Of a DNA stretch of 23,158 nucleotides, positions 1 through 23,158 are shown in pieces. The stretch lies in contig FN648721.1 in the NCBI GenBank assembly GCA_000310025.1, positions 2,389 through 25,546 on the forward strand. The letters run 5' to 3'. The DNA is from Ectocarpus siliculosus (Eukaryota > Sar > Phaeophyceae > Ectocarpales > Ectocarpaceae). The notes beneath the pieces are model-generated. The model made no database searches and was not told the DNA's origin. It saw only the letters and a list, made by a program, of their open reading frames with translations. A program made the translations under genes and the position numbers. Positions within the stretch are counted from its first letter, which is position 1. Every line of letters starts with the position of its first letter.

Positions 1-1143
1 AAAATCGGTCTCCTTCTCATAATTCTCGAACATCGCAGACAGACTCGGAGAAGCAACCCTGTGCAAATCTTGCTCAGAAAAACAGTGATTCCTATCGTGA
101 CTCGCAAGCATTTCAGGGTCAACACCGGGTACAGCAGGTACGAAAACGTCAGACGCCTTAAAACCAAACGCAGACTCAAGAAAAGAATCAAACTTGCCTC
201 GAGGGCACACACTTCGTGCCATGAAGAGACGAAGAGGGGCGTCGCCAGCAGGAGGTAGAACGTCGCCTGGATCTGGAGAGGGAGAGGAGGAGGAAGAGGC
301 CGCCTGAGGCACGCCGTGGTACTGCTGCTCCTGCTGCTGCTCAAAACTCGCCTGCTGCTGCGGGAAGGGCGCCGGCTGCTCCGAGACGTAGAAGGCCTCG
401 TTGTAGACTCTCGGCTGATACGCGTCAGGACCTGCAGCAGAAGGGCAGTATGTTACGTTGGCCTCCTGCTGCTGGTGCGGCCCGCCGTCTTCGGAAAAAT
501 AGCCGAAGCCAAATCCCCCGCCGGCGTTGCCGTAGGAACCGCCGCTGTGGTTCCCCCCGTGAGCCGCGAGCCCATACCCGTATCCCGCCTCGGAAGGTGA
601 TGGGGCCCAGCTTGGCGTGGGTGCCGGCGCCGACGTTTGCTGCCATCCCGAGCTGCTTTCGCCACCGAACGAATCTCCGCCCCCGATGGCCAGGTGAGCC
701 GGAAAAAAGGGCCGCGGGACGCTGGCAAGCTGCCCTGCAGGTACGTTGGCCGGCGGGAAATTGCCCCCGCGGCCGCCGCCTTGCCCACGGCTTTCGTAGG
801 GGCGAGGCCCGTAGCCGCCGTAGCCCCGTCCCCCATCGTTGCGCCCCTGCATCTGCCCCCCAGCTCCGGGTCCTGGCCCACGCGGCGGCCCCTGAGGCGC
901 ATGAGGGTGGCCCTGACTCCAGCCCGCACCGTGTTGGAATTGGTACGACTGCTGTACTGATGGACCACCAACCCGCCCCAGGTTCTGCGATCCGCCTCGT
1001 GGATGAGCGGCCGCCTCGGCGTCCCTCCTGCCGCTCAAGTACGCGCTGATCTCGTTGTAATTCGCCAGGAACTCGCTGCGCAACTTGTGACAGTCAGCGG
1101 TCGCGTGCGAGGTGTTGGGCCCGTGGTACTGGCAGATGTTACG
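1..1143 (-). pseudogene. gag: gag segment 3: CHHC zinc knuckle and Gly/Tyr/Gln-rich tail; open at the window edge
   Basis: This frame has no stop from 1143 down to base 1 (381 codons). It opens with RNICQYHGPNTSHATADC, a C-x2-H-x5-H-x4-C knuckle (Cys codons at 1134-1132 and 1092-1090, His codons at 1125-1123 and 1107-1105), followed by HKLRSEFLANYNEISAYL. Such knuckles bind zinc and package element RNA. Residues 60-250 are a low-complexity Gly/Tyr/Pro/Gln region (GGRGYGGYGPRPYES, GGFGFGYFSEDGG, several QQQ). A more globular end begins near base 220 (MARSVCPRGKFDSFLESAFG). No protease Asp-Thr/Ser-Gly motif is reached. The frame runs past the window, so this is a partial reading of an uninterrupted stretch. 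Confidence 0.66.
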
Positions 1144-1654
1144 GTCCCAGCTGCTGCTGCTGCTTCTGCTGCTGCTGCCGCTGCTGCTGCTGCGGTGGCT
1201 GCATCGACGCCTGTGGCTGCTGCTGCTGCTGCTGCTGCTGCGGTCCGCCGTGACCCATGCCGACAATGGCTGGTCTCCTCTGCCCGCCGCCCCGGCCCAT
1301 GCCGGCAGCGACGAGGGCGTGCCTCGTCTCCTCTCCTCTCTCTCCAGACCTCCGCTCGTACCTCTGCTCGTGCTCAGCCGTCCTCAACGCCTCCTGCATT
1401 TGTGCACTCGACAACATGGGGTGAAAAAGGACACGCTCTTTAATTTTCTCAAATTCTGGCAAAAAACCCCGAGCGATGTGCTTGCACATGGACACTTCAG
1501 CACGATTATCACCGTATGACACCAGTCTCATCCAAAGCGCCTTAGCTCTACCAAAGTAGTCCATCAAACTTTCTCCATTCCTCTGACACAGCACATTCCA
1601 CTGATCATCAAACGTCTGTCTTTCCTCGTTTTTACTGCGGTCGGTAGTAGTCCA
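1139..1654 (-). pseudogene. gag: gag segment 2: end of capsid-like region and Gln-rich linker
   Basis: In the frame one base on from segment 1, coding-like sequence starts at RSKNEERQTFDD (about 1637) and includes GESLMDYFGRAKALWMRL, MCKHIARGFLPEF and a charged stretch with many Arg and Glu (EHEQRYERRSGERGEE). This matches the expected second half of a UBN2-type gag. From about 1245 the frame becomes almost pure Gln with Pro breaks, encoded by CAG repeats, and stops at TAA 1141-1139 just after QQQQLGP. The zinc knuckle that should follow is in yet another frame. The break falls at the edge of the CAG tract, where one-base slippage is easy to imagine. No ATG is needed at the start because this is an internal piece of a longer protein. 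Confidence 0.68.
1150..1241. repeat. Interrupted CTG/CAG trinucleotide repeat
   Basis: CTG triplets on the plus strand at 1150-1193 and 1215-1240, with a few TTC, CCG and GTG interruptions. They encode the poly-Gln linker of gag on the minus strand. The second gag frame break lies at the left end of this tract. Confidence 0.9.
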
Positions 1655-2389: not shown

Positions 2390-2819
2390 TGTAGAAACTA
2401 TCCGCGGGCGTGAAAGCCCTTCTACGTGGTGGAGCGTGGAAGCTCGTGTATAATATAGTTGTGGCGTGGAAGCCGGGTGGCGTGGTGGCCCTGATGTAAA
2501 GGTATATTTAGGGACGTGGGAGTCCTGAAGGCGTGGAAGCCGGGTTGGCGTGATAGCCGGAGTATGGGCGTGGAAGCCGGGGTTGGCGTGAGAGCCGGAA
2601 AAAGGACTTGATTATACACAGAAAAAGGAAGTGAGGAACCACAAGCCACGCACACAAATTCCGTTGTAGACACCCATACCCTCAAACCTGCAATATGTGA
2701 TAAAGTTGGTACCACCAAATCTAATCCATAGCAACCATTGACCCCCCAAACTCCCCGCTCCATCTGCTCGGGAAATTCTTGCTCGCAATAATCTGTTGAT
2801 GCTGTGAGTACATCCAACA
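2390..2819 (-). repeat. Candidate 5' LTR of the retroelement
   Basis: On the minus strand the segment begins TGTTGGATG (2819) and ends TTTCTACA (2390), which fits the 5'-TG...CA-3' rule for LTR ends, and it sits about 140 bases upstream of the gag ATG. TATA-like AT-rich stretches occur at 2445-2458 and 2501-2510. A primer binding site just inside the LTR was not recognised with confidence. The boundaries are a guess from end dinucleotides and position, because the partner LTR is outside the window. Confidence 0.35.
2406..2598. repeat. Array of nine short dyads / mini-hairpins, consensus GGC-GTGRNA-GCC
   Basis: Nine units share a 3-4 bp arm, a six-base centre starting GTG, and a matching arm. 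Unit positions: 2406-2419 (GGGC/GCCC), 2432-2445 (GAGC/GCTC), 2463-2474, 2479-2490, 2512-2525 (GGAC/GTCC), 2530-2541, 2547-2558, 2567-2578 and 2585-2596. The other units have GGC/GCC arms, three of them extended by T-G wobble pairs (2462/2475, 2546/2559, 2584/2597). Two units differ from the consensus in both arms at once and keep pairing (AGC with GCT, GAC with GTC). The array lies inside the candidate LTR. Confidence 0.75.
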
Positions 2820-4631
2820 TTGGCGTTTCATATTTTGAAAACTAAGAACTGAAAGGTTGTAATGCGTGCCACCGGGTTAATTATCAGTCATCATGGAGTC
2901 AGGAGGCGTTCGTAGGACAACGACAGCACTGGCCTCCGACGCCAACGTATCTGTGTCTCTTGATCCAGCCGAGAGCAACATCACACAGCTAAATATGCTG
3001 CCGAGGTACATATATACCTGTCAACGAATCCATACATGTCTCCCACTCTTTCTATGATAGAGATGGATTCGTTGTGTCGTGATTAAGAAAAAAAAAAAAT
3101 CACGTGCTGCATCGTGTACGATCACATGCGGCGGAATATCAAAAATCTGAAACGCCCGAGCCTATTTTTCGAGCACGCGCGCACAGCGACCACTAAACGC
3201 ACAAGCTCACTCGCACACACGCTCACAACCAAGCCCTTCCCTCATCGACATTCCCCCTGACAAGAATACCGTCCACGACAGTGCAGCAGCGGTCGCAAAC
3301 ACCGAGTAAGTCCGCTTTCTGCTGCTTCTCAAGTCTGTGGTAGGTCGACTCTGCGTTTATTTGCGTCGACTGCGGGAACCGTGAGCGTGTTACCTCGCAC
3401 GCACTCTTGTAGCCCTTTCCTTTGCCGCACATATGCCCGGCGGCGAACGTAGACAAAGCCCTCGCTGTGTCTCCATGATCGGGTTCGTAGTCACGACGAG
3501 CACATGAGGTCCGTCCATTTCTCAGTCTGTCCTCACGATCTCCATGCGTTATGGTGTCCTGCACGCTCGGGGGTCGTGGTCGACGGCAGCAGCAGCAAAA
3601 AAAATTACATTGAGCGCACTCCGACGACGGCGTCTTCGGGTAGCTGATATTCCGTGCACATGTACATTACGAACGGTTGTTCTACTGCCTTCACCTCCTC
3701 TGCGCCTCAAACAATGTCGATATTATCCCGTGGAGCCTGTAGACACTCGTTGCATCCTGTGTTTTTTCTCGAGAATTCGAGATGCTGCGATAAAGTACAC
3801 AGTTTGGACTTAGACGACATATAGTGGGTCACCCGACCGACGACGAATGTTTTCATGTATTTCATGTACCGTTACTGCCATACCCCCCACGGCAGCACCG
3901 CCAAACTCAGTACCTTTGGCAGCTGCGAACTTGGCTCTACCAGTGACGGCACTCGGTTTGCTCACGTCGATGATACCATGTCCCCATGATACGTAATTGT
4001 GGCCTGGGAACAGTAACTGGCTGTGGAATGATGAAGTAACGTAGTTTACGCACATGCAGTTGACACTGGGTAGACAAATGAGGGCCCGCATACGACCCAG
4101 CCAGTGTCGCTATGACCGCGGCGTCGACAGTCTCCAACTACCGCGGGCAAAGCCGACAGATCGACGTCCTGGTGGCGTCTACAGCAGACGTGTAGGTTTC
4201 GTACGACGCCCTGACAGCAAAATGAGAACGGGGTATCTCGAACGGGTTATCTCTCATTATGACGCTGTGTTTGACTACAAATGTGTGGCATGCCTTGACG
4301 GTTTCAAGTGTGATGGCGGCGGGAATACATCCAAACTCGGAACGTTGAGAGTCCAGCGATTCTCGACGCACGGGCCATTGCATATTGTTTGCGACCAAGC
4401 TCTGTTTACAGCCGCTCTGATGATCAATACTAGGCGCATCAATAACGTTTGCTAAGCATACTTACATACTTACATGAGTGGCGACATCGAGAAAAGCGGA
4501 AGTTCAGCCTCGAGAAAAGCGTTCGATTAACGCCGAATACAATCCTCCTTCGTCGACATTCTACTGTAGTACTGACGTTTTCCTTGATCTTCCTGCGACT
4601 ATTCGCCGACCATCATCTCCTCACAGGAAAT
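2820..4631. other. Spacer between the retroelement and the beta-helix gene; no firm gene
   Basis: The stretch holds an inverted-repeat cluster (3004-3104) and several short overlapping ORFs on both strands that I cannot assign. The better ones are minus 3564-3223 (113 codons, with DRCC and CGKGKGYKSAC phrases), minus 4091-3810 (93 codons) and plus 4054-4455, which contains a Cys-rich phrase KCVACLDGFKCDGGGN. None has a clear start context, splice partners or a recognised full domain. The last part, before 4632, should contain the promoter and 5' UTR of the beta-helix gene, but no clear TATA box is seen. Confidence 0.5.
3004..3104. repeat. Cluster of three consecutive inverted repeats
   Basis: Arm pairs are AGGTA/TACCT (3004-3008 and 3015-3019), a perfect 12-bp pair CAACGAATCCAT/ATGGATTCGTTG (3022-3033 and 3063-3074, 29-base spacer), and CGTGATT/AATCACG (3079-3085 and 3098-3104) around an A-rich loop. 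They lie about 190 bases outside the candidate LTR and could be a remnant of a foldback or MITE-type element. Confidence 0.7.
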
Positions 4632-4724
4632 ATGTCGTCCAGTTCATACAAGACGAGGTTCGCCGCAGGGCTCCTGCTCGTCGCCACGGCCGCTTCCCAT
4701 CTGAGCGTCGGCCTAGCAGCGACG
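4632..4724 (+). other. Signal peptide coding region of the beta-helix protein
   Basis: Codons 1-31. A short Ser-rich start with Lys and Arg is followed by a hydrophobic core AAGLLLVATAA and a small-residue region ending GLAA before TISVKPG. This fits a secretory signal peptide with cleavage near residue 29-30. An upstream in-frame extension exists in the same open frame (from 4449), but it lacks an ATG that would explain a signal at the N terminus. Confidence 0.75.
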
Positions 4725-7700
4725 ATCTCGGTTAAGCCTGGAGGCCTTCAGTCCGCACTCGACAAGGTAGTTATCGAATGATCGCGGATTGGTTATTCGT
4801 TATTTTCTCGTTGTTCTCGGTGTCGCCGGCATAGAAAGCAGAATGCCATCAATCAATATCTTGGTTGATATCATTTTTCTGCAAGCGCCCTTGTTAACCA
4901 TTGCGAAAAACGTGGAAATTATTACCTCGAGAGATGGTCACGACTTTACCCTCTCACCTCCCCCATTAATTCGACATTGCAGGCTAAGCCGGGTGACACC
5001 CTTCGACTTGCCCCGGGAGAATACTGGGAGACGGCCGTCACCAAAACTGCCGGGTAAGTTCTTTTGACAGAGCTCGTGTTTTAGGGCGTACTCAGGATTC
5101 GCTCGATGAGGCCTTACCAATCAAACGTGCTGAAAGTATTGATCTATCTAAGGTTCGTGTTTGTGTCTCGTGGTGGTAGATATTTGATCCAGCCATCGCT
5201 TTCTGCATGACGGCTAAGTCTCCCTGCTGCCACCTTGACCATCCGTCCAAAACCCGACCAACAATGACAGTCGTGAGGATGCCTATATTACGATCGAGGG
5301 GGAGACGTACGGCGCTATCGTCAAGGGAGATCAAGACATCGACAACGATGGCTACGCCTTGAAGATCGAGCACTCCTACTACCGCCTTGACCGTTTCACC
5401 ATCGACGGCAAACACAGCAAGAACAACTACATCGACAAGTGCCTGTACGTGCAGCAGAACCGCGACAACGACGACAAGGCGAAGAAGATCAAGTTCAACG
5501 GACACAAGTTCAGGTACGCTGCAGCATACTTCCCCTCATATTTTCTTGTATTAGGCATATAAACCACAATTGAACGTTTGCGGCCTTGGATATACTGCTG
5601 CCCGACACAGACAGTCCGTTTTCTCTATTCATGGTCGTTGATCTTCAGCAGAAGTCTCAACCGCGTCTGCGCAGGGCCTCCGCCCCTCTCTTCTCCAGCC
5701 ATTGAAAATGGCTGTCTTGTTTGCTGGGTTACCATCGAATCCCAGCCGGACCCAACCACATGATGAGCAACGACGTGTCGATAAAGCTTCCACTCATAGA
5801 CATGAGATTTCCGTCGACGGATTCCGTGCCCTCTCCACGGCCGTCTGTCGGTTTGGTTGCTCTCGAATACGACCACCGTTGTTGTAGGATGCAACACCCC
5901 GGCCGTGCACGGTCAAATTATTCAAATTGGTTCGAATCAAGCCCCGCCCTACGTCGGAAGTTGGATTGCCAAAAACAGCCAAATAATCCCCGTGAGAACT
6001 GTGCATTTTCACCCTTGCCCAACGGCGGTTCAGTCGAATAATATTGGCAAGAATCAGCGTTTGGCCAATTCTGTTTCCACCTCCCCTAGGCCAATGTGTT
6101 TTCCGCATCCAAACCAGGTACAAGCTTTGCCAAGACCTGTGAACATCTTGTCCAACAGAGCCCTGCTGTGCACTGTTCTCGCCAGTTCCTGATGTTGCAA
6201 AGTGCACCCACTCAAACTGTCCTGTTTGCTGCACGGACTCGCCTGCCCCAAGCAAGACCACGATCTTCTCGACTTCTTCTTTGCGAAGCAAACGGTTCCA
6301 CAACGCGAAAGCCTCCTCCCCCTTACCATCTGGAAGTTTCCGCGTGCCTTAAGTATCCATCTGCCATCCGGACCCGGATCAAAACCTACAGCTCGACACT
6401 TCCACCTACCCTATTTCCTACCGCAGAATCGAAATAACCAATCCCTCGAGCAAAACGTACAACTGAGAGAGGGATACCTGGAGTACATTTATTCTCAATA
6501 TATATGTGTGCCTGACACTTGACGCCGTCGTCGTACTCGTGCAGGTCTTCGATCAACGGGCTGGTTCTGTCCAACATGGACATCAACAACTGCGGTGGCG
6601 AGTGTGTCCGAATGCGCTACTTCGTCACCTACTCTCAGGTGCTTTGGATTCGGTTGCACCCGCCGATTCGAACGAAGATGCTCAGGATGATGCACTTCTC
6701 AGATTGTTACCCTGCACACACCACTTATATGCTAGCAGGGGTATCTGAAGCAAGCTAGCATAATGGAAGGGGATCTTTTGATCGTGCAAGTCATGCCTCA
6801 GCATCAACGCGTTGTTAATAGTAAGAGAGGTTTCACCATCATCAGAGCGTCTTGCAACGCATGCCAAATATACGTTTTATTGAAGTTGCATGTTGGACCA
6901 AACACACACACACGACACAAGACTTACCCATCTCATCAAACATGCGTCCAACCCGTATTTTTCTTGGCCAATCTCGATATGACCTTGCCGCCGTACAGGT
7001 TTACAACAACAGGATCACCAACTGCGGTACCCACGACTTCGTCATGGACGGCGGCTCCAAGAACGGCGAGGGGATTTACCTTGGTAAGGAGTGTCCCATG
7101 TTCCTTGATGCTTGTTGGTCTGCGTGAGATGACCGGCTGCTGCTGCTCTTGCGGTTCGTGTACGAGACTAGTGAAACGGTGGCAGACTTGAGGTGCTTTC
7201 TCGAAAGCTAAGAATAGTTGAGACGCGGTCCCGACTAGATCTCCGCCACACGAATTCCCCAAATGCAGAAGAGGGCTTGTCGTATTCACGACCGTTCACA
7301 TGAACTCAACAAGCTAACTAATTAACGACTCGGTCGTGCCACGTGGAAACAGGGACCTCGTCAAACCAGTGGGATGATGGCAAGAACCCAAGCGACGAAC
7401 CCGACGAAAGCAGCTACAACCACTTCTTCAAGAACCACTTCGACACACAGGTAGACCCTCCTCGCGGTTAGAAGCAGGTTTGGGTCCAATGAGGCGTAAA
7501 ACGGGGACAAACGGCGGTTGCCGATCGAAATTCTTGGCACGCTGCGGCGTGCGCCTTTGAGCCACGCCCAACAACGGGTCGGACGATTCGACCAGCGCAT
7601 GGCAGAATTACGCCGGCGTTCGAGTAAACGTCAAGTGCACAATTTCATATCGGGAATGATGCATGCTGTATCAATGCAACAAGAAAATCCTGATTTGACC

Positions 7701-10700
7701 ACTTCCGCAAGAACATTGTCGGAACCTGATTAATCGAAGGACAAAAAACACGTGCCGTGGCGCCCGGGACTCGGAGCTTTTCAATGCCGGTTTCGTCAGG
7801 AACTTTCCTCACCAACACCACACGCCTTGAGCTGTTTGCTGTTCATTCGCATCTGTACGGGTTGCTTACTGCCGATGTCTGGCATAGTTCAAGGCGTCCC
7901 GGCTGTCTGATGCACAACTCGCTCGAAAACACGACCAATATGTCTGTCGCGAACAAATTCGTTCAAAGCGGCAAGCCGGTGGACGTCGAAGAGACATCCA
8001 AGTTCCGAGGCTATTAGACCAAATGACGCAGGGAGAAAAACACACTAGTAACATGGCAGGGCAGACATTGTCAAGATCATATCATTGGTCGGGGCATGGA
8101 GGCCAGTTGTGTTGCCAACTCTCATCATAAGCCACGGCTTCATCGACAATGCACCAATGAAACGTCACGCTTCTGCACCTTTCGAAACGAAACTGTCCAG
8201 GGTAACGAGGGGATCGACATCAAGGAAGGTTCCAGGTACAACATCGTCGAGGACAACTACTGCACCGGCCAAAAGGACCCGAACTCTGCATGTGAGGGAA
8301 AACTTTAGTACCGTATTTTCGATGTGGGACTTGCTATTGTGTTGACATCGGCTACACGTTGATGGCGAAACTCCGAAACATCTTGTGTCGATGCACACGC
8401 GAAGCAACACCACAGAAACAATACCAATGAGGTGTCGTCAAATTTTGCAGCGTGTCCGTGCAAACCTCAAAGCTAAGCTGCAGTGTTCGGTTTCCAAGTA
8501 TATCGTATAACGGATTGACTTTCAATGGAGAAGTTGAACAGGAGAGTGACAATGAAGAGTTGAACTTCAACCTCCTACGGTTCGATTCGAGCTCGTATTC
8601 TACTTCCTTTTCGCACTCGTTGGCGTGAAACTTTCAATCGTCCTGCACGGTACGCCTTAGACTTGAGGTTTTTGATGGACGGTCGATTACCTCCTTCAAC
8701 TACCCGTTTTTGTCTGCCGTAGTCAGGCATTCCTACGTACAGAAACTCAAATGTCTTCCGATTCAACGCGACGCCATTCATCCGACAACTACAAGCGGAG
8801 AAAAAAACTGCGTTCGGCTAGCCTGCTCGTTGCTACTCACCTCAGACAATGCTTGTCTGTTGAATCTAACTCGTTTGCTACCGCCACACCATTTGTTGGG
8901 CACGCCACCACGATTCCGCCGTAACCGGTCAAAACAAAACCGGCCGATGATATCGACTCTTTCATCAGGCTCGTGTATAGAGAAAATCACAGGTCTTTGA
9001 CCTCGTCTCATACGCCCTCATCTTACGCTATCGCCACTGTGCGATCCACTAGGCCTCGACGCTCGCGGCGATTCCAACATCTTCCGGTTCAACACCTGCG
9101 AGGACAATCTTGGCGCCGGCATCCGCATCGGGGGCCACAAGATCGACGGCCACCAGTACGGCCAGAATAACGAGGTCTACGAGAACCTTCTCGAGAACAA
9201 CGATTACGCTGGCATCAAGATCACGGTAAGAGCCCCCCTCGTTATCCAAGCTCTCATCCTGTCGACACCGATGCGCTTGCTCTAGAAACCACAAGCAATC
9301 TATGCCCCCCCCAGGTTCGCCATCGGGATTGAGTTGTTGTCGCTAGGCAACGACGTTGTAAAACAAGACGATGACTTCGCGCGCGCTCGGCAACCCGGCT
9401 ACCTCGTAATTTTCTTGCCTTTGTCGGTTTCTTTTTGCGGTAGCCATAATGGTGGTCGAGCAGATGATGATGTACGGGGTCGAGAACCCCCCACTCCGCG
9501 CAAAGGGGATGATCGGACAACGTTGCGTGAAGTTGGTCAAGCACCCTTGAGGCAGTTACACGGTGCATATCTCTGCCTCTGGAAGCGAAGGCACCAGAAA
9601 AATAGTGAAGCCACTCGCATCTCTAATCCGTATGGCAGTAAGAATGCACAAGATGCCGAACGCCCTTAACAGGATGCAGCGCACCCTCCACGCGACTCGC
9701 CGAATAACTCACGGCGCTTCGCGGTTGGTGATGTGAGAGCCTGGCCCGGTGATAACCCGGCGTGCTCCGTCCCTGCTTTGTAGGGACGCGAGGTCAATGG
9801 TCTAACGACTGCCTGCGGCATGCACGAGTATGAGTACACTCCCCTCGAATCAACATCTGCTGCGTCCATAGCGCCCTTAACCCACACCAAGAGTCACAAA
9901 AGTAGCTATCAGGTCCATGCCCATCTGAAGCATAGTTCGTGAAACGCCTCAGAGTATCAACTGCGACCCATCCCACCATTCCTCGAGCGGTTGATTTGTC
10001 ACTGATGGGGTTGCCGTGGTGTCTCTCTCGCTCACACCGAGCACATACGCAGTACCAACGAAGTTCGACAGCAGGCAGCACAAGCCGTGTTTCTTGAGAC
10101 ACGTGAACGAATCGCGTGTTTTACGGAAGGGTTGAGAATTCCCGGCCCCCTTGACCTTTTTCTCGTAGAAAATGCTGTGACACAAACATCTTTCAAATTG
10201 TTTCTCCATGGTCGCAATAGTTGCCAACCATCGATCATGTTCTTGACCACGACCGCATTTGTAACGCCATTCCAGATGAGCCCTCAAGGGGCAGTGTGCA
10301 GCAACGATATCCTGGGAAGCAAATACGACAGTAGGGGAAGCAGCTACGCCGAAAAGCTCAGCCCTGAGGGCAGCTGCGAGAAGCTGAGCGGCGACCTCTC
10401 AGGTGGGGACCCTACCACCTCTGCGCAGTCGCTCAAAGCATTTACCCACATAATTTAAGAGGACTACTACTGTAGTCTACATATGTTGTTGCACATAATA
10501 TATTCTGTATCCCCGATGTCCTGGCTCTCCGATGAACAGCCGATGACTGCAGCGATTGCCAAGACGTGAAGAGGCTTGAAACGGAACTTAGGGACGCCAA
10601 GAGGAAGTGCAGGAAGAACAGGGGGGAACGCAGGGGGGAACGTGCCGAGCTCGACCTGCTCGAAAACGACAGCAAAAACAACGACAGCGACAGCGACAGC

Positions 10701-13133
10701 GACAGCAGTGACAGCAGTGACAGCAGCGACAGCAGCAGCGACAGCGACAGCGACAGGTGAGTGTTCAGTGGTCGTTGTGGCCACTTTTCGCGTTGTTGTG
10801 GGTGATTCTTCTGTTCTTTGACTCCCAGCAATAAAATCTATCGAGTCGGTGGCGCGTAACAGTCGCTTTCTTTGCCGCTTGCTGTGCGACTGGGGCGTGC
10901 GTATCGTACATGGGTACAGCCAAGGGCAACGGAAGAGATAAAAATCATCAATGGAATTACTGTACCACCAGAAGGAGGCCACTGCAAGAAACCGAAAAAC
11001 AAACGTGTTTCCGAATACACGGAAAAGCCGATTTCAACTCTCTGAAAAAGTCACGTTCGCCGTTCTCCCCGCGCTCGCATACTTCTCATCGACGGCGGCA
11101 AAAAGGATCAATATTTCGGCGTAGGGACGACGACCTGAGGGGCGCTCACGTACTCTTTGGCATTGTTGCTTGAGGAAGTGTTGTCTTCACTGTGCTGCGA
11201 AAACAATCAAATCCGGCTCCTAATCACAACAAACAGAGGATGCGACCAAGCTTATACCCAAAGTCATAACTCACGTGCCAAATATTGTTGAAAATGTCGG
11301 ATACGCTCGGCCGTTTTCGTGGTGGGAAACTCTTTCAAACACGACTATTTCGTTGAATACCCGCCGGAATAAGAAAAAAAACTAAATGTTGACATTAAAG
11401 GAGAAGCTGTCCGTACCAAAAGAGACCATTGAACGTACCGCCATTAATATAAAAATGGGAGACTACGATAAGAGGACTCTTCTCTCAACTATGTACATAC
11501 ATACATGTACAGTAGTACCGCGCCAGCCCTTTGTAAAAATCGTCTGGAAGATTTAGCCGTACTGAGACTACGAGTTCAGCATTTTCATATTATTGGCGAC
11601 TTCGAAGGTGGGATAATGTCGTCTTTGTTTCGACCATAGCACCGACGACCCGTTCCCAAGAAAACGTGTCATGAGTGTCCAATCGCAATATTTCCCCCGA
11701 AAAACATGAAATAAAAGACACTTCACAATTTTTGTGCGGTGGATCCTACATTTCATCCTGTACGGAAGCCTTTGCTCGGGCTACGAAATATGAAATTGGG
11801 CCCAGACCCGAACTTGATGATTCATGTTCCGTCCGGTGCGTTGTAGGCCACGGTAACACCGATATGCCTTGTTCAATGGGTACCTGGATGAGAAGGACCC
11901 AAATTGGTTATCGCCAACTGAGATAGGCTGCACGGAATGCACAGTCGTTGGCTAGTCGAACCGACGAGTTGTTTGCCCACCGTTGCTGGCGGTTTCCTGT
12001 CCGCCCGGGCTGAGCACACAGACGTGTGAAGCGAAACACTTTTTCTTTTCGCACAGAATCGGTGGTGATTCACGAACACCCTCTTTTCCTCGACGTCGTT
12101 CCTCGAAAAACTGGAAAAGAAAATGTCTAACACGAACGGCGATGGAAGGGACGTCTCGGCCCCATTCATTGCTGATTGTCATCCCATCGGCCCGAATCAA
12201 ACCACAGTCACTTCCAGGAGATAAGAGTGTGTTTGGAATGTGGTGTGGTGTGCCTGCAAGTGATAACCTTGAGATCGCCGAGACTGACCTTAACTTACCG
12301 CGGAAACCACACCCACCCACCGTGCGCGCGACGGATGATGATGTGGCCGATGACTACGGTAGTGACAGTGACAGCAGTGACAGCAGCGACAGTGACAGCA
12401 GTGACAGCAGCGACAGCAGCAGTGACAGCGACAGCAGTGACAGTGACAGCAGTGACAGCGACAGCAGTGACAGCGACAGCAGTGACAGCGACTCCAACGA
12501 CAGGTGTGATTAACAAAACCTGTCGGCAATGAAGTCATTGTCGGATCGAGGCTCAGTTTCATTTTTATCGTAACCTCTGTTGAGCAGAGACTAGCCAATG
12601 AACCGTAGGATCCACCTCTGAGCTGCGTTTCTTTACCCCACTTGCATATTTTCGTATACGTGTGACCCTTTGTATCTTACAGTACGTGGACTACTTCTTG
12701 CGCCTTTGTTTTGTGAGGGAAACTCGAAAACCCCACACAACGAAACATCACTGAAAACATGGTCCCTGAAAGAGCGGTACCAATTTCACTTCCTTCCCCT
12801 CCGAGTTCGTGATCAGTTTTTCGAGGGTATACAAGTCTGCGATAAGCTCTATCGACACACAACAAACCACGATGGCTGCTTACTGGGGTCGCTCTCATGT
12901 AGGTGGCCATGTGGCGACACGCCATGGCCAGATCACGTTGACCCGTCCCCACCTCTGCACTGATGTTTGAATCTTTTTTTGTCCAACACTATGTATGACT
13001 GACCCACCACAAATCAACATGAAACTGTTTCTTAGCCACTAGTGGCAAGCCAGATCCTTTCGACAACACCGACCCGACAACGTCCACATTCCGTGTCCTT
13101 GAGGGCGATTCCTTCCCATCCATTGACGAATAG
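4632..13133 (+). CDS. Secreted right-handed parallel beta-helix (pectin-lyase-like) protein with Ser-Asp tail
   Basis: Joined exons: 4632-4766, 4983-5053, 5271-5513, 6545-6638, 6999-7083, 7353-7450, 8201-8291, 9053-9225, 10276-10402, 10540-10756, 12363-12503 (5' edge uncertain, possibly 12261) and 13043-13133. All introns are GT-AG and all phases match, giving 521 residues. The start ATG is chosen because it opens a signal peptide (MSSSSYKTRFAAGLLLVATA, cleavage near residue 30). Residues 31-330 form a beta-helix: an N-terminal cap with AKPGDTLRLAPGEYWE as in PL6/chondroitinase-B-like proteins, then rungs such as SSINGLVLSNMDINNCGGEC, VYNNRITNCGTHDFVMDGG, GNEGIDIKEGSRYNIVEDN and NEVYENLLENNDYAGIKIT. 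Residues 375-425 are charged and coiled-coil-like; the rest is a Ser-Asp tail. It should act outside the cell on or in polysaccharide. Catalytic residues cannot be assigned, so lyase, epimerase or pure binding roles all remain possible. Confidence 0.82.
5514..6544 (+). other. Intron 3 of the beta-helix gene
   Basis: The donor is AG/GTACGC after KF and the acceptor is GTGCAG before the GTCTTCG that begins the next rung; the split codon restores Arg. This 1,031-base intron has several medium ORFs on both strands, the longest 169 codons on the minus strand (6303-5794), but none resembles a known protein. No terminal inverted repeats of an inserted element were found by eye. Confidence 0.75.
10540..10756 (+). 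other. Exon 10: charged coiled-coil-like linker and first Ser-Asp tract
   Basis: The acceptor AACAG (10538-10539) leaves a split Ala codon and then DDCSDCQDVKRLETELRDAK, RKCRKNRGERRGERAELDLL, ENDSKNND and a Ser-Asp run. Leu, Val and Ala spacing in VKRLETELRDA and AELDLLEND suggests a short helix or coiled coil. Three Cys (two in DDCSDC and one in KRKC) may pair. The other nearby acceptor (10551-10552) breaks the frame, which decides this start. The exon ends GACAG/GTGAGT, a strong donor. If that donor is not used, translation stops at TGA 10758-10760. Confidence 0.8.
10681..10756 (+). repeat. Ser-Asp coding hexamer repeat, tract 1
   Basis: Repeats of GACAGC and GACAGT type encode alternating Asp-Ser with extra Ser, in frame with exon 10. 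It ends exactly at the splice donor, as does tract 2. Confidence 0.9.
10757..12362 (+). other. Intron 10 of the beta-helix gene, the longest intron
   Basis: About 1.6 kb between two Ser-Asp exons. An AATAAA hexamer lies about 70 bases after the exon 10 donor. The acceptor is not unique: TAG at 12361-12362 or CAAG at 12259-12260 both keep the frame (the latter would add SDNLEIAETDLN and an acidic stretch DDDVADDYGSD). No further gene was recognised inside. Confidence 0.6.
10830..10835 (+). terminator. Possible intronic polyadenylation signal (AATAAA)
   Basis: This canonical hexamer lies 70 bases downstream of the in-frame TGA that results if intron 10 is retained. It could produce a short transcript ending just after the first Ser-Asp tract. 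Brown algal genes often lack a strict AATAAA, so this may be chance. Confidence 0.3.
12361..12503 (+). repeat. Ser-Asp coding hexamer repeat, tract 2 (exon 11)
   Basis: About 140 bases of AGTGAC, AGCGAC and AGCAGT units encode roughly 45 residues of Ser-Asp, ending SDSNDR at a GACAG/GTGTGA donor. It has the same phase and the same exon-end motif as tract 1, which suggests exon duplication. Either of two TAG/CAG acceptors at the left end would serve. Confidence 0.85.
13043..13133 (+). other. Exon 12: probable terminal exon with stop codon
   Basis: The acceptor CACTAG (13041-13042) is preceded by a T-rich tract and a TGACTGAC branch-like site. The split codon gives Ser, then GKPDPFDNTDPTTSTFRVL and EGDSFPSIDE, then TAG at 13131-13133. 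Pro, Thr and Asp richness and frame fit the tail of the beta-helix protein. Weak donors inside the exon (for example GTGTCC at 13099) could bypass the stop and lead to the exons further downstream. Confidence 0.6.
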
Positions 13134-19538: not shown

Positions 19539-19590
<52 letters not shown>

Positions 19591-19603
19591 TTATCTCTCT
19601 CTC
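19539..19603 (+). repeat. (CT)23 microsatellite with degenerate extension
   Basis: A pure CT run at 19539-19584 is followed by GTCTCTTTATCTCTCTCTCC. An A-rich run (19513-19526) precedes it. Confidence 0.95.
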
Positions 19604-20391: not shown

Positions 20392-22761
20392 TTACGCCGC
20401 AACGGATACCCGCTTGTCCTCCTCCACCCGGCCGTCGAACACGGGAGGCGGGGCGCCAGACAGGGTGGCAGTGGGCGCGGACGCGCGGACCGAAGCGCGA
20501 CCCTCCGAGGGCCAACACCTGCTACCGCTGCCGCTGCTGCCGCTGGATGGACCACCACCGCTGCCCCCCCACAGCGATGGCGAAGGCGACGGCGAGAACG
20601 CCCCGGTGCTGGCGGCTTCGACCGCCACTCTCGAGGAGTCGTAAGAGTTGCCGCCGAGGAGATGGTGGACGGCGGCCGCGGCCGCCCGCTTGGCGTAGAC
20701 CGTCGACCCGGGGATGGAGCCCGAGCCAACCCCGGCCCAGTTGCCGTACCTGGAGGGCGTCCATACGGCGGAGGGGGTGGGTCAACTTCTTCGATGCAGA
20801 TTCGTGAAACATTTGACGCAGACTGGTGATACTGCGGTATGCGTGGAGCGGGGTACGTGTGATGCTGCTTGCGCTGGCTGGCTCAAAACCTCGTTCTGAT
20901 GTTTTATCAATGACGTGCTGTCGGGGAAACTGGGCAGCCCTCTACGCAATAGAGCGTGGAGGGGAATGCGAAAGGGTCCATGCGTTGATGGTGCGTGAGG
21001 AACACCTTCGTCTCATGCTTCGAGCTTTTCTGACAGCATTGAACACACAAACAAAGTCTTCTTTTGAAAATACTGTGAATCCGGAAACTGGACCCCGTCC
21101 TACAAAAGCCTCCTCTGCATCCCCCCTGTCAGGAGAGCCTCACAGCAGATAAGACACTATCCATGTTCGCGTTTTTCTTGTCCCGCTACAAGGCTGACGT
21201 CTGTTCATTCATCGGCCGGTGAGCGCGGCCCATGCCCTTCACCAAATACACGGGCACTGACGCCTACTTTCATTGGCCCACGAGGGAGCGCGTTCGATTG
21301 AAAAAACAAGAGACCCATCCAAGCACATAGTGGTCAGCCGGTTTGCACGGTCGATTCTAAGAAAGAGAGAGAGAGACACACACACACGACAGAGAGAGAA
21401 TAACGAGCACACAAACACAACCAAAAACTATAAAAACTCTCCATACATCTGCTGTACTCAATTTAGAAACATAAAAAACACACTCACCCCACAGCGAACA
21501 CTCCTGGGACCTCGGTCTCCCCCATCTCCCTCCCGTCCATGCCTACCGTAGAGTTCGGGCGGACGAGCCCGAGCCGCGACAGGTGCGACGTGTTCGACCG
21601 GTAACCAGTGCACCAGATTATGGCGTCTACGTCTGCGTGCCCGCCCGGAATGCTCCCGTCTTCGGACGCCTCCCACGCGACCCCCGTGGGCGTGAGGCGC
21701 GCGAGCTTGGGGACGCGCTGGTCGTAGACTCCTCGCTCTGCCGCCTCTATCACGCCCGGCTGCATGATGATGCTGTAATGTAATGGAGGGGGTGCAACGA
21801 AGGTGTGGGGGGCACGTCAACTAGATGTACACGTCGATGGCGCGTTGAGGAGACGGGGGTAGCGAGTTTCGTGAAGATGAACGGACGCATCATCGTCCGC
21901 TGTATCATTGCGTGTCAACGACTGGCTCTCCACAACACCGGCACATTTTCCGGGAGATGGAGGAGGGGGGGGCGTGGTCCTTTCCAGTATCATGATACGA
22001 TGGTCCACTACACTACACTTGGATAGCAAATTGGGGGGTGCTTCAGTGCTTAATTTTTCTTGAAAGAAAAACAACGCAGAAACTTATCGCGTTAATCGCA
22101 CAACCGTCCGTGTGGTTGAGTTAATTGTTGGTTCCCACCTGTGAAGGGAGGGGATGTCTTCCTCTCGCACGAAGCCTTGCTTTTGCCTCAGCCGAGCAAC
22201 TGTCACCCGAAAGAGAGAAAGTAGGTGACGATGAGGGGAGGTTTGTAAGGACACGGGACGTGCGACACAGCCACCATCGTATTGAAAGAGGCAGGCGTCA
22301 AGCCGGAGGGACACCGCGTACCGTGCATGCTCATGGCAGTGGGGTTTCGTTGGCGTCCTGCGCGCGAGAATGAGAAAAACATGTACTTGTCAGTTACAGC
22401 CGTACCTCTGTGCGCACGATTCCTCCGCGTTCTAGAGGAGGGAAGATAATTCCCCCGGTACATACACACTACAGCAGACATGTTTCCCTTCTCTTACCCG
22501 TGTCGAAAATCTCCTTGCCCGAGAGCCCCATCGGCAAGAACGACGGCGCCGTCAGCGTCGACCACAGCGTCGACGACGCCACCCCAGGCGCGGACACCTC
22601 AGCCAAGATCTGGGCGCCGCTGTTCCCGGAGCCGACAACGGCCACCTTCTTCCCCCTGAAGTCGTCGGCGAAGCGGTACTGGCTGCTGTGGATCTGGGTG
22701 CCGCGGAAGGTTTCCCACCCGGGGAGGCGTGGCCACACCGGGGACGCGTGAGTACCGGCCG
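20392..22761 (-). CDS. Flavin-containing monooxygenase (FMO/CzcO-like), C-terminal part; 5' exons outside the window
   Basis: Minus-strand exons 22761-22498, 22199-22139, 21772-21488 and 20749-20392 are GT-AG spliced with matching phases (split codons give Val, Ser and Gly). The family oxidises soft nucleophiles, or acts as a Baeyer-Villiger-type enzyme, using FAD and NADPH. Visible motifs: AGTHASP; the FMO fingerprint F-x-G-x3-H-x3-Y-R as FRGTQIHSSQYR; the NADPH Rossmann GSGNSG within KKVAVVGSGNSGAQIL; IIMQPGVIEAAERGVY; the C-T-G-Y motif in DAIIWCTGYRSN; and the end VPGVFAVGYGNWAG as in COG2072 proteins. The N-terminal FAD-binding GxGxxG part is missing because it lies to the right. The last 75 residues are Ser/Gly/Pro rich and beyond the usual family end. 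Substrate is unknown. Confidence 0.88.
21363..21400 (+). repeat. GA/CA simple repeats in the last intron of the monooxygenase gene
   Basis: GAGAGAGAGA, CACACACACA and GAGAGAGA runs occur in succession between the exons at 21488 and 20749. Confidence 0.85.
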
Positions 22762-23158
22762 CTGTGGGGGGGATCGGCGGGGCGAGAGGGAGGAGACAAG
22801 ATGTGCAGGGAGGGGGTGACGCGGTCAGTACTGTATGGGGGTACATTGTTTGACGATCATCCGGTGGGATATCTAGATACTCTCCAACACACGCATGTAC
22901 GAAACCAACGTTTTTGTCATACCCTTGGAGGGCGGAGATGACTGATGTCTGACCTTGACCGGCAAAGGCCAGCACTATTTACGATAATCGCAGGCGGGCA
23001 GGGCACCGGGTTTTTCTGCATTTCTGCCAGCAGCGGGGTGTCCCAACTCCTCACCCCCCCCCCTCCCCCCTGGGTCAATCCCGTGGACCAGGGGAAGACG
23101 AATATTGAACTGGAAGACACCTATGTACACACACACGAAACGTGTGTACATCTACCGA
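22762..23158 (-). other. Intron of the monooxygenase gene, running to the window edge
   Basis: The acceptor for the 22761 exon is preceded by a pyrimidine-rich tract rich in C. No FMO-like exon (FAD motif) was found up to the right edge. The stretch contains C-rich runs at 23054-23070 and a 10-bp inverted repeat ATGTACACAC/GTGTGTACAT (23123-23132 and 23142-23151). Confidence 0.6.

Follow-up and report, generated by a model that had tools for sequence, protein, structure and literature searches.

What kind of sequence is the row of short paired units that lies upstream of a gag-like reading frame in the brown alga Ectocarpus siliculosus? The stretch analysed, here called the window, comprises 23,158 nucleotides of contig FN648721.1 (assembly GCA_000310025.1, positions 2,389 to 25,546 of the forward strand). 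At 2406-2598 of the window, the initial annotation described nine mini-hairpins with compensatory arm changes inside a candidate long terminal repeat (LTR), and favoured selection on structure over tandem drift. The array is most probably a tandem repeat with a unit of about 17-18 bp that arose by duplication and then diverged. The explanation favoured here, at a rough probability of 0.45, is a repeated upstream cis-element of an ordinary kind belonging to a retroelement.

The nine units are all present within these 193 bases. They have the form arm-GTGNNN-arm and start at 2407, 2433, 2463, 2479, 2513, 2530, 2547, 2567, and 2585. Seven have GGC/GCC arms, one has AGC/GCT, and one has GAC/GTC, with GTG opening every centre as had been described. 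Read on the plus strand, the motif search gives GGC GTGAAA GCC at 2407-2418, GGC GTGGAA GCC at 2463-2474, and GGC GTGGTG GCC at 2479-2490. The two units that differ from the consensus in both arms yet keep their pairing are AGC GTGGAA GCT at 2433-2444 and GAC GTGGGA GTC at 2513-2524. All are assigned to the minus strand, which is the sense strand of the gag-like frames. Dinucleotide shuffles of 2406-2598 (n = 2000) contain a mean of 0.13 units and at most two, against the nine observed, so the array is not a product of chance. On the plus strand of the whole window there are 14 sites at which GTGNNN is flanked by three-base arms of any paired sequence, and the five outside the array are scattered. 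The fourth pair ascribed to some units occurs, with wobble counted, in six of the nine on the plus strand but in just three on the minus strand.

The kinship of most units is that of tandem copies. Tandem Repeats Finder reports 3.8 copies of an 18-bp unit with 76% matches at 2530-2599, the best-kept part of the array, which holds the units at 2530, 2547, 2567, and 2585. Here the copies are related head to tail with a common period; the remainder is less regular. The direct repeat D1 links the units at 2463, 2530, 2547, 2567, and 2585, and the direct repeat D3 links 2407-2432 with 2463-2488, that is, the unit at 2407 and a further one at 2423 with those at 2463 and 2479. Units 2433 and 2513 are outside every direct-repeat family and are related to the others by 10/12 and 9/12 matches to the consensus, respectively. 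Spacings of 16 to 20 occur between 2407 and 2423, between 2463 and 2479, and along the series 2513-2530-2547-2567-2585, while the step from 2479 to 2513 is 34, or twice 17. This suggests a decayed tandem period. The steps of 10 (2423-2433) and 30 (2433-2463) are misfits to a simple period.

The count of nine stands for the paired units, but the annotation left out a probable tenth. This degenerate unit, TAC GTGGTG GAG at 2423-2434 (TACGTGGTGGAG), is read on the plus strand like the others, lies in D3 register with unit 2479, and overlaps unit 2433 by two bases. Its arms oppose T-G, A-A, and C-G and are not fully paired. It matches the consensus at 6/12 positions, a level reached at many places in the window, and unit 2479 at 8/12. 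The two have in common the exact eight-base run CGTGGTGG, in register through D3, and an in-register exact run of eight between them was reached in 6 of 20000 shuffles. Over the ten units the invariant columns are C3, G4, T5, G6, and G10, the units having been chosen for GTG. The GTG sits in the loop, and its invariance is unexplained by pairing.

The favoured explanation is that a repeat of about 17-18 bp with the core GGCGTGGAAGCC (on the sense strand, GGCTTCCACGCC) would have been duplicated in the non-coding stretch upstream of a gag-like frame, and would since have decayed, least at 2530-2599. If the array is functional, its units would most likely be repeated sequence-specific DNA sites on the promoter side of the element that include the short dyad, by analogy with the tandem repeats in the U3 region of Tnt1 and retroviruses. 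The promoter-side position and any binding role are conjectural, whereas most units are demonstrably related as repeats and the array lies upstream of the frames. The kinship given by D1, D3, and Tandem Repeats Finder favours this explanation, as do the tenth unit, which is in register yet unpaired, the location of the invariant GTG in the loop, and the occurrence of tandem series of the same motif in unrelated sequence.

Several results weigh on the other side. Across all settings tried, the share of runs of simulated independent drift with at least two compensated units was 0 to 3.5%, and that of runs which also kept at least seven units intact was no more than 0.16%; this rarity speaks against simple drift. 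By hand count over the ten units, changes occur at 8 of 60 arm positions and at 10 of 30 last-three-loop positions, unit membership itself being partly decided by the arms. RNA of the minus-strand array folds with a z-score (z) of -3.11 against dinucleotide shuffles, none of 200 being as good, and 48 random stretch-by-strand controls from the window go no lower than -2.29. By eye, a TATA-like stretch, GTGTATAAT, was recognised at 2611-2619, which on the sense strand precedes the array; should it be the promoter, the array would belong to the transcript, outside U3. Neither a binding protein nor a transcript is known, and the searches made brought up no further copy of the element.

Close rivals of the cis-site explanation are a neutral minisatellite and a structure in the RNA leader. 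The former, in which the array has no function and the two compensated units arise by chance or stand out because paired units were the ones picked, is rather unlikely. By hand count the ten units comprise seven with consensus arms, two compensated, and one broken, and the broken one agrees with neutrality. All four arm changes in the compensated units are transitions, G to A or C to T, and a high share of transitions makes compensated units more frequent in the simulations; even so, the simulated chance stays at or below the 0.035 and 0.0016 given above, and the arms are less changed than the loop ends. An empirical control was taken from tandem arrays of GGCGTGNNNGCC, which occur at at least 131 loci (11 viral and at least 120 prokaryotic); these correspond to the stretches matched by a three-unit array pattern, while a 23-base array pattern had no match in the viral contigs. 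Units were counted alike in control and window arrays, with GTG kept and at least 5/9 fixed positions matched.

Among the control matches listed there are 133 array starts, where arrays may be double-counted and units are counted once, with 509 units having consensus arms and 150 changed. The changed units comprise 13 that are Watson-Crick paired, 20 that are paired by wobble only on the strand read, and 117 that are broken. The 13 compensated units come from five loci, with eight in locus L049 alone, and locus L001 has one with the same AGC/GCT arms as in the window. All spacings are divisible by three in 119 of the 144 control matches listed, so these arrays are probably coding repeats, as judged without a gene-by-gene check, and served as controls only. 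Their fixed periods and probable coding nature make them non-ideal. At a rate of 13/150 among the matches listed, a hand calculation gives a probability near 0.02 for two or more compensated of three changed units, which counts against neutrality. The two compensated among three changed units are therefore suggestive of selection on pairing, not proof, and the observation comes from two units of one copy.

The RNA structure has somewhat more in its favour, yet it is still doubtful. Here the sense transcript would carry a row of three- to four-pair hairpins, with a longer stem around seven units, and the 5′ leader so formed would have a role in Gag binding, packaging, dimerisation, or translation. 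In addition to the minus-strand z above (-2.87 with 60 shuffles), the lowest-energy fold forms seven of the nine units as their own hairpins. Of the two strands that the annotation had proposed to fold against shuffles, only the minus strand shows an excess; the plus strand has a z of -0.94. The arm columns over the ten units (eight distinct) hold standard pairs in 95.8% of cells, and their covariation is 0.452 against 0 to 0.202 for slid controls, where the tenth unit's T-G is treated as a pair that on the minus strand is A-C, and where units are compared inside one array of one copy only. The share of standard pairs and the covariation score were each matched in none of 500 shuffles. The number of cells changed on both sides was reached in 1 of 500, the number of pairs with such a change in 25, and the number of further pair types in 58.

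The single hairpins are weak, at -3.8 to -7.4 kcal/mol on the minus strand. Once the relationship between units is kept, as in column-permuted nulls, z falls to -1.51 and -1.55 (23 and 21 of 300 as good), and with the units kept and the spacers shuffled it is -0.96 (55 of 300). The whole 570-base upstream region, 2250-2819, has a z of +0.20, and its lowest-energy fold comprises four of the nine hairpins and no pairs of the outer stem. Only part of the annotation's preference for structure over drift is accordingly borne out: the minus-strand fold, covariation, and drift simulation agree with it, while the kinship of the duplicates, the broken tenth unit, the compensated control units, and the weak results with these stricter nulls and the longer region do not. 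The neighbouring stretch 2980-3172 on the plus strand has a z of -3.56, in contrast to the 48 controls elsewhere in the window. An Rfam scan of the window gave no match at or above the gathering threshold.

The outer stem is the inverted repeat I2, whose arms at 2446-2459 and 2606-2619 enclose seven units and have a core of 9 bp in perfect complement. The core is rare with 44-base flanks (5 of 3000 shuffles) and at other window positions with identical geometry (5 of 876), and less so with flanks of 60 (25 of 3000) and 100 bases (73 of 3000). The segment 2440-2625 has a z of -4.25 with five of the seven hairpins formed, its boundaries having been picked afterwards to hold the stem. The I2 arms pair with each other in this fold but not in that of 2250-2819. 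The second arm contains the TATA-like GTGTATAAT on the minus strand, which, if it is a promoter at all, would place the array in RNA and so agree with a leader structure. A second TATA-like stretch was seen by eye within the array near 2450. In a more specific form of the RNA reading, which is improbable, a sense RNA domain would be closed by the pairing of 2446-2459 with 2606-2619 into a stem of some ten pairs. Seven mini-hairpin units that share one half of their loop would branch off inside it, and the domain would act as a multivalent Gag docking array kept by compensatory change.

Both double changes may instead have arisen without selection on structure, each as a single event of template switching during replication. 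This is also improbable, as the arms have merely three bases, which is short for such a process. Template switching is on record as able to make and repair hairpin stems and to account for multibase compensatory changes (PMC8794818). The DNA cruciform offered as an option in the annotation found no support, the minus strand having a z of +0.31 when folded as single-stranded DNA. Arms of three bases are too short for a cruciform.

The array is located about 157 bases upstream of the first gag-like open frame, which has 205 residues and lies at 1632-2249 on the minus strand. It was called gag by eye and has no Pfam match at E up to 10. The second gag-like frame (1139-1594, minus strand, 151 residues) lies in another reading frame, contains a glutamine tract, and has sub-threshold Pfam matches only (TFIIA, E 0.13). 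A GCT/CAG tract at 1150-1241 encodes its glutamine-rich stretch. The third open frame (1-1266, minus strand, 422 residues) runs off the window, has no Pfam match at E up to 1, and contains CQYHGPNTSHATADC, which by eye we take to resemble a zinc knuckle. These minus-strand frames, 2249-1632, 1594-1139, and 1266-1, occupy three different reading frames, and the frame changes suggest an old, broken copy of the element. They are candidates, judged by eye, for the gag of a degenerate retroelement. In Ectocarpus, Copia families that have just one gag-like frame are on record (PMC12477816).

AlphaFold models of the two gag-like frames, made without an alignment, have mean predicted local distance difference test (pLDDT) values of 37.7 and 51.6 and are too poor to use. 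Single-protein scans, which reach close relatives only and were run on non-eukaryotic collections, covered the 205- and 151-residue frames, with the 422-residue frame left out. They found no relative of the former in viral contigs or plasmids and none of the latter in genome contigs or viral contigs.

The array may lie within an LTR or the promoter-side region of the element, for which there are only candidate boundaries. Thirteen TG...CA end pairs with five matching bases would enclose it. One of these unproven spans, 2298-2819 on the minus strand, has the inverted ends TGTTG/CAACA and is presumably the most Copia-like of the 13. A second LTR copy is absent among the window repeats of 30 bases or more, and the element runs off the window start. 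For a primer binding site, some stretches beginning with TGG were compared by eye, without computation, with general transfer RNA features, and none fitted; a transfer RNA gene scan of the window found none. A nine-pair hairpin with a T-rich tail lies at 2359-2381 on the minus strand, just 3′ of the array on the sense strand. It is the only terminator-like site in a bacterial-type scan, which is within expectation at a shuffle mean of 0.6, and a bacterial-type promoter scan found no promoter.

Elsewhere, the window has a G+C content of 0.46 to 0.63 per kilobase. A perfect 12-bp inverted repeat, CAACGAATCCAT, is present at 3022-3033 and 3063-3074 with 29 bases between its arms, near an A run, and could be part of a small inverted-repeat element. 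Exon-like pieces of a secreted beta-helix-like protein were seen by eye at 4600-7130 on the plus strand, and two stretches of these pieces gave no match above the Pfam cut-off. Related GACAGC/GACAGT repeat tracts occur at 10668-10763 and 12361-12492, the latter encoding Asp-Ser runs in the plus-strand frame 11983-12513. A CT dinucleotide run of 32.5 copies is located at 19539-19603. The minus-strand frame 22469-22975 has a match to flavin-binding monooxygenase-like proteins (PF00743, E 7e-10).

Tandem repeats in U3 are on record for retroviruses and for tobacco Tnt1 (PMC3601003). The array resembles these in having short repeated motifs in the upstream non-coding region of a retroelement. In contrast, its clearest TATA-like site is upstream of the array on the sense strand and not downstream, and the LTR and promoter are here candidates; the likeness is one of arrangement. 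The soybean retrotransposon Gmr9/GmOgre likewise carries a short tandem repeat within non-coding sequence (PMC3305785), whereas the array in Ectocarpus lies upstream of the gag-like frame. If it is transcribed, the array also resembles the 5′ domain of Ty1 RNA, where hairpins near the 5′ end of the transcript have been linked to dimerisation and packaging. The Ty1 domain is built of distinct stem-loops plus a pseudoknot, while the array has near-identical three-pair hairpins in a row (PMC5454406). Neither a mini-hairpin array in an LTR nor a leader module of stem-closed mini-hairpin units is described among the papers listed, which were covered by title and start of abstract and come from a literature that leaves most subscription journals outside. 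Given the known U3 tandem repeats and retrotransposon minisatellites, the annotation's statement that no such LTR module is described holds at most for the exact form.

If the array is of the ordinary kind, it is a further case of a short repeat expanding in the upstream region of a retroelement. Compensatory changes within a tandem array call for a control of other tandem arrays. Should the fold of the sense strand prove real, the element, which has no close relatives in the collections searched, would carry in the array a compact, multivalent signal in its RNA that serves packaging or translation.
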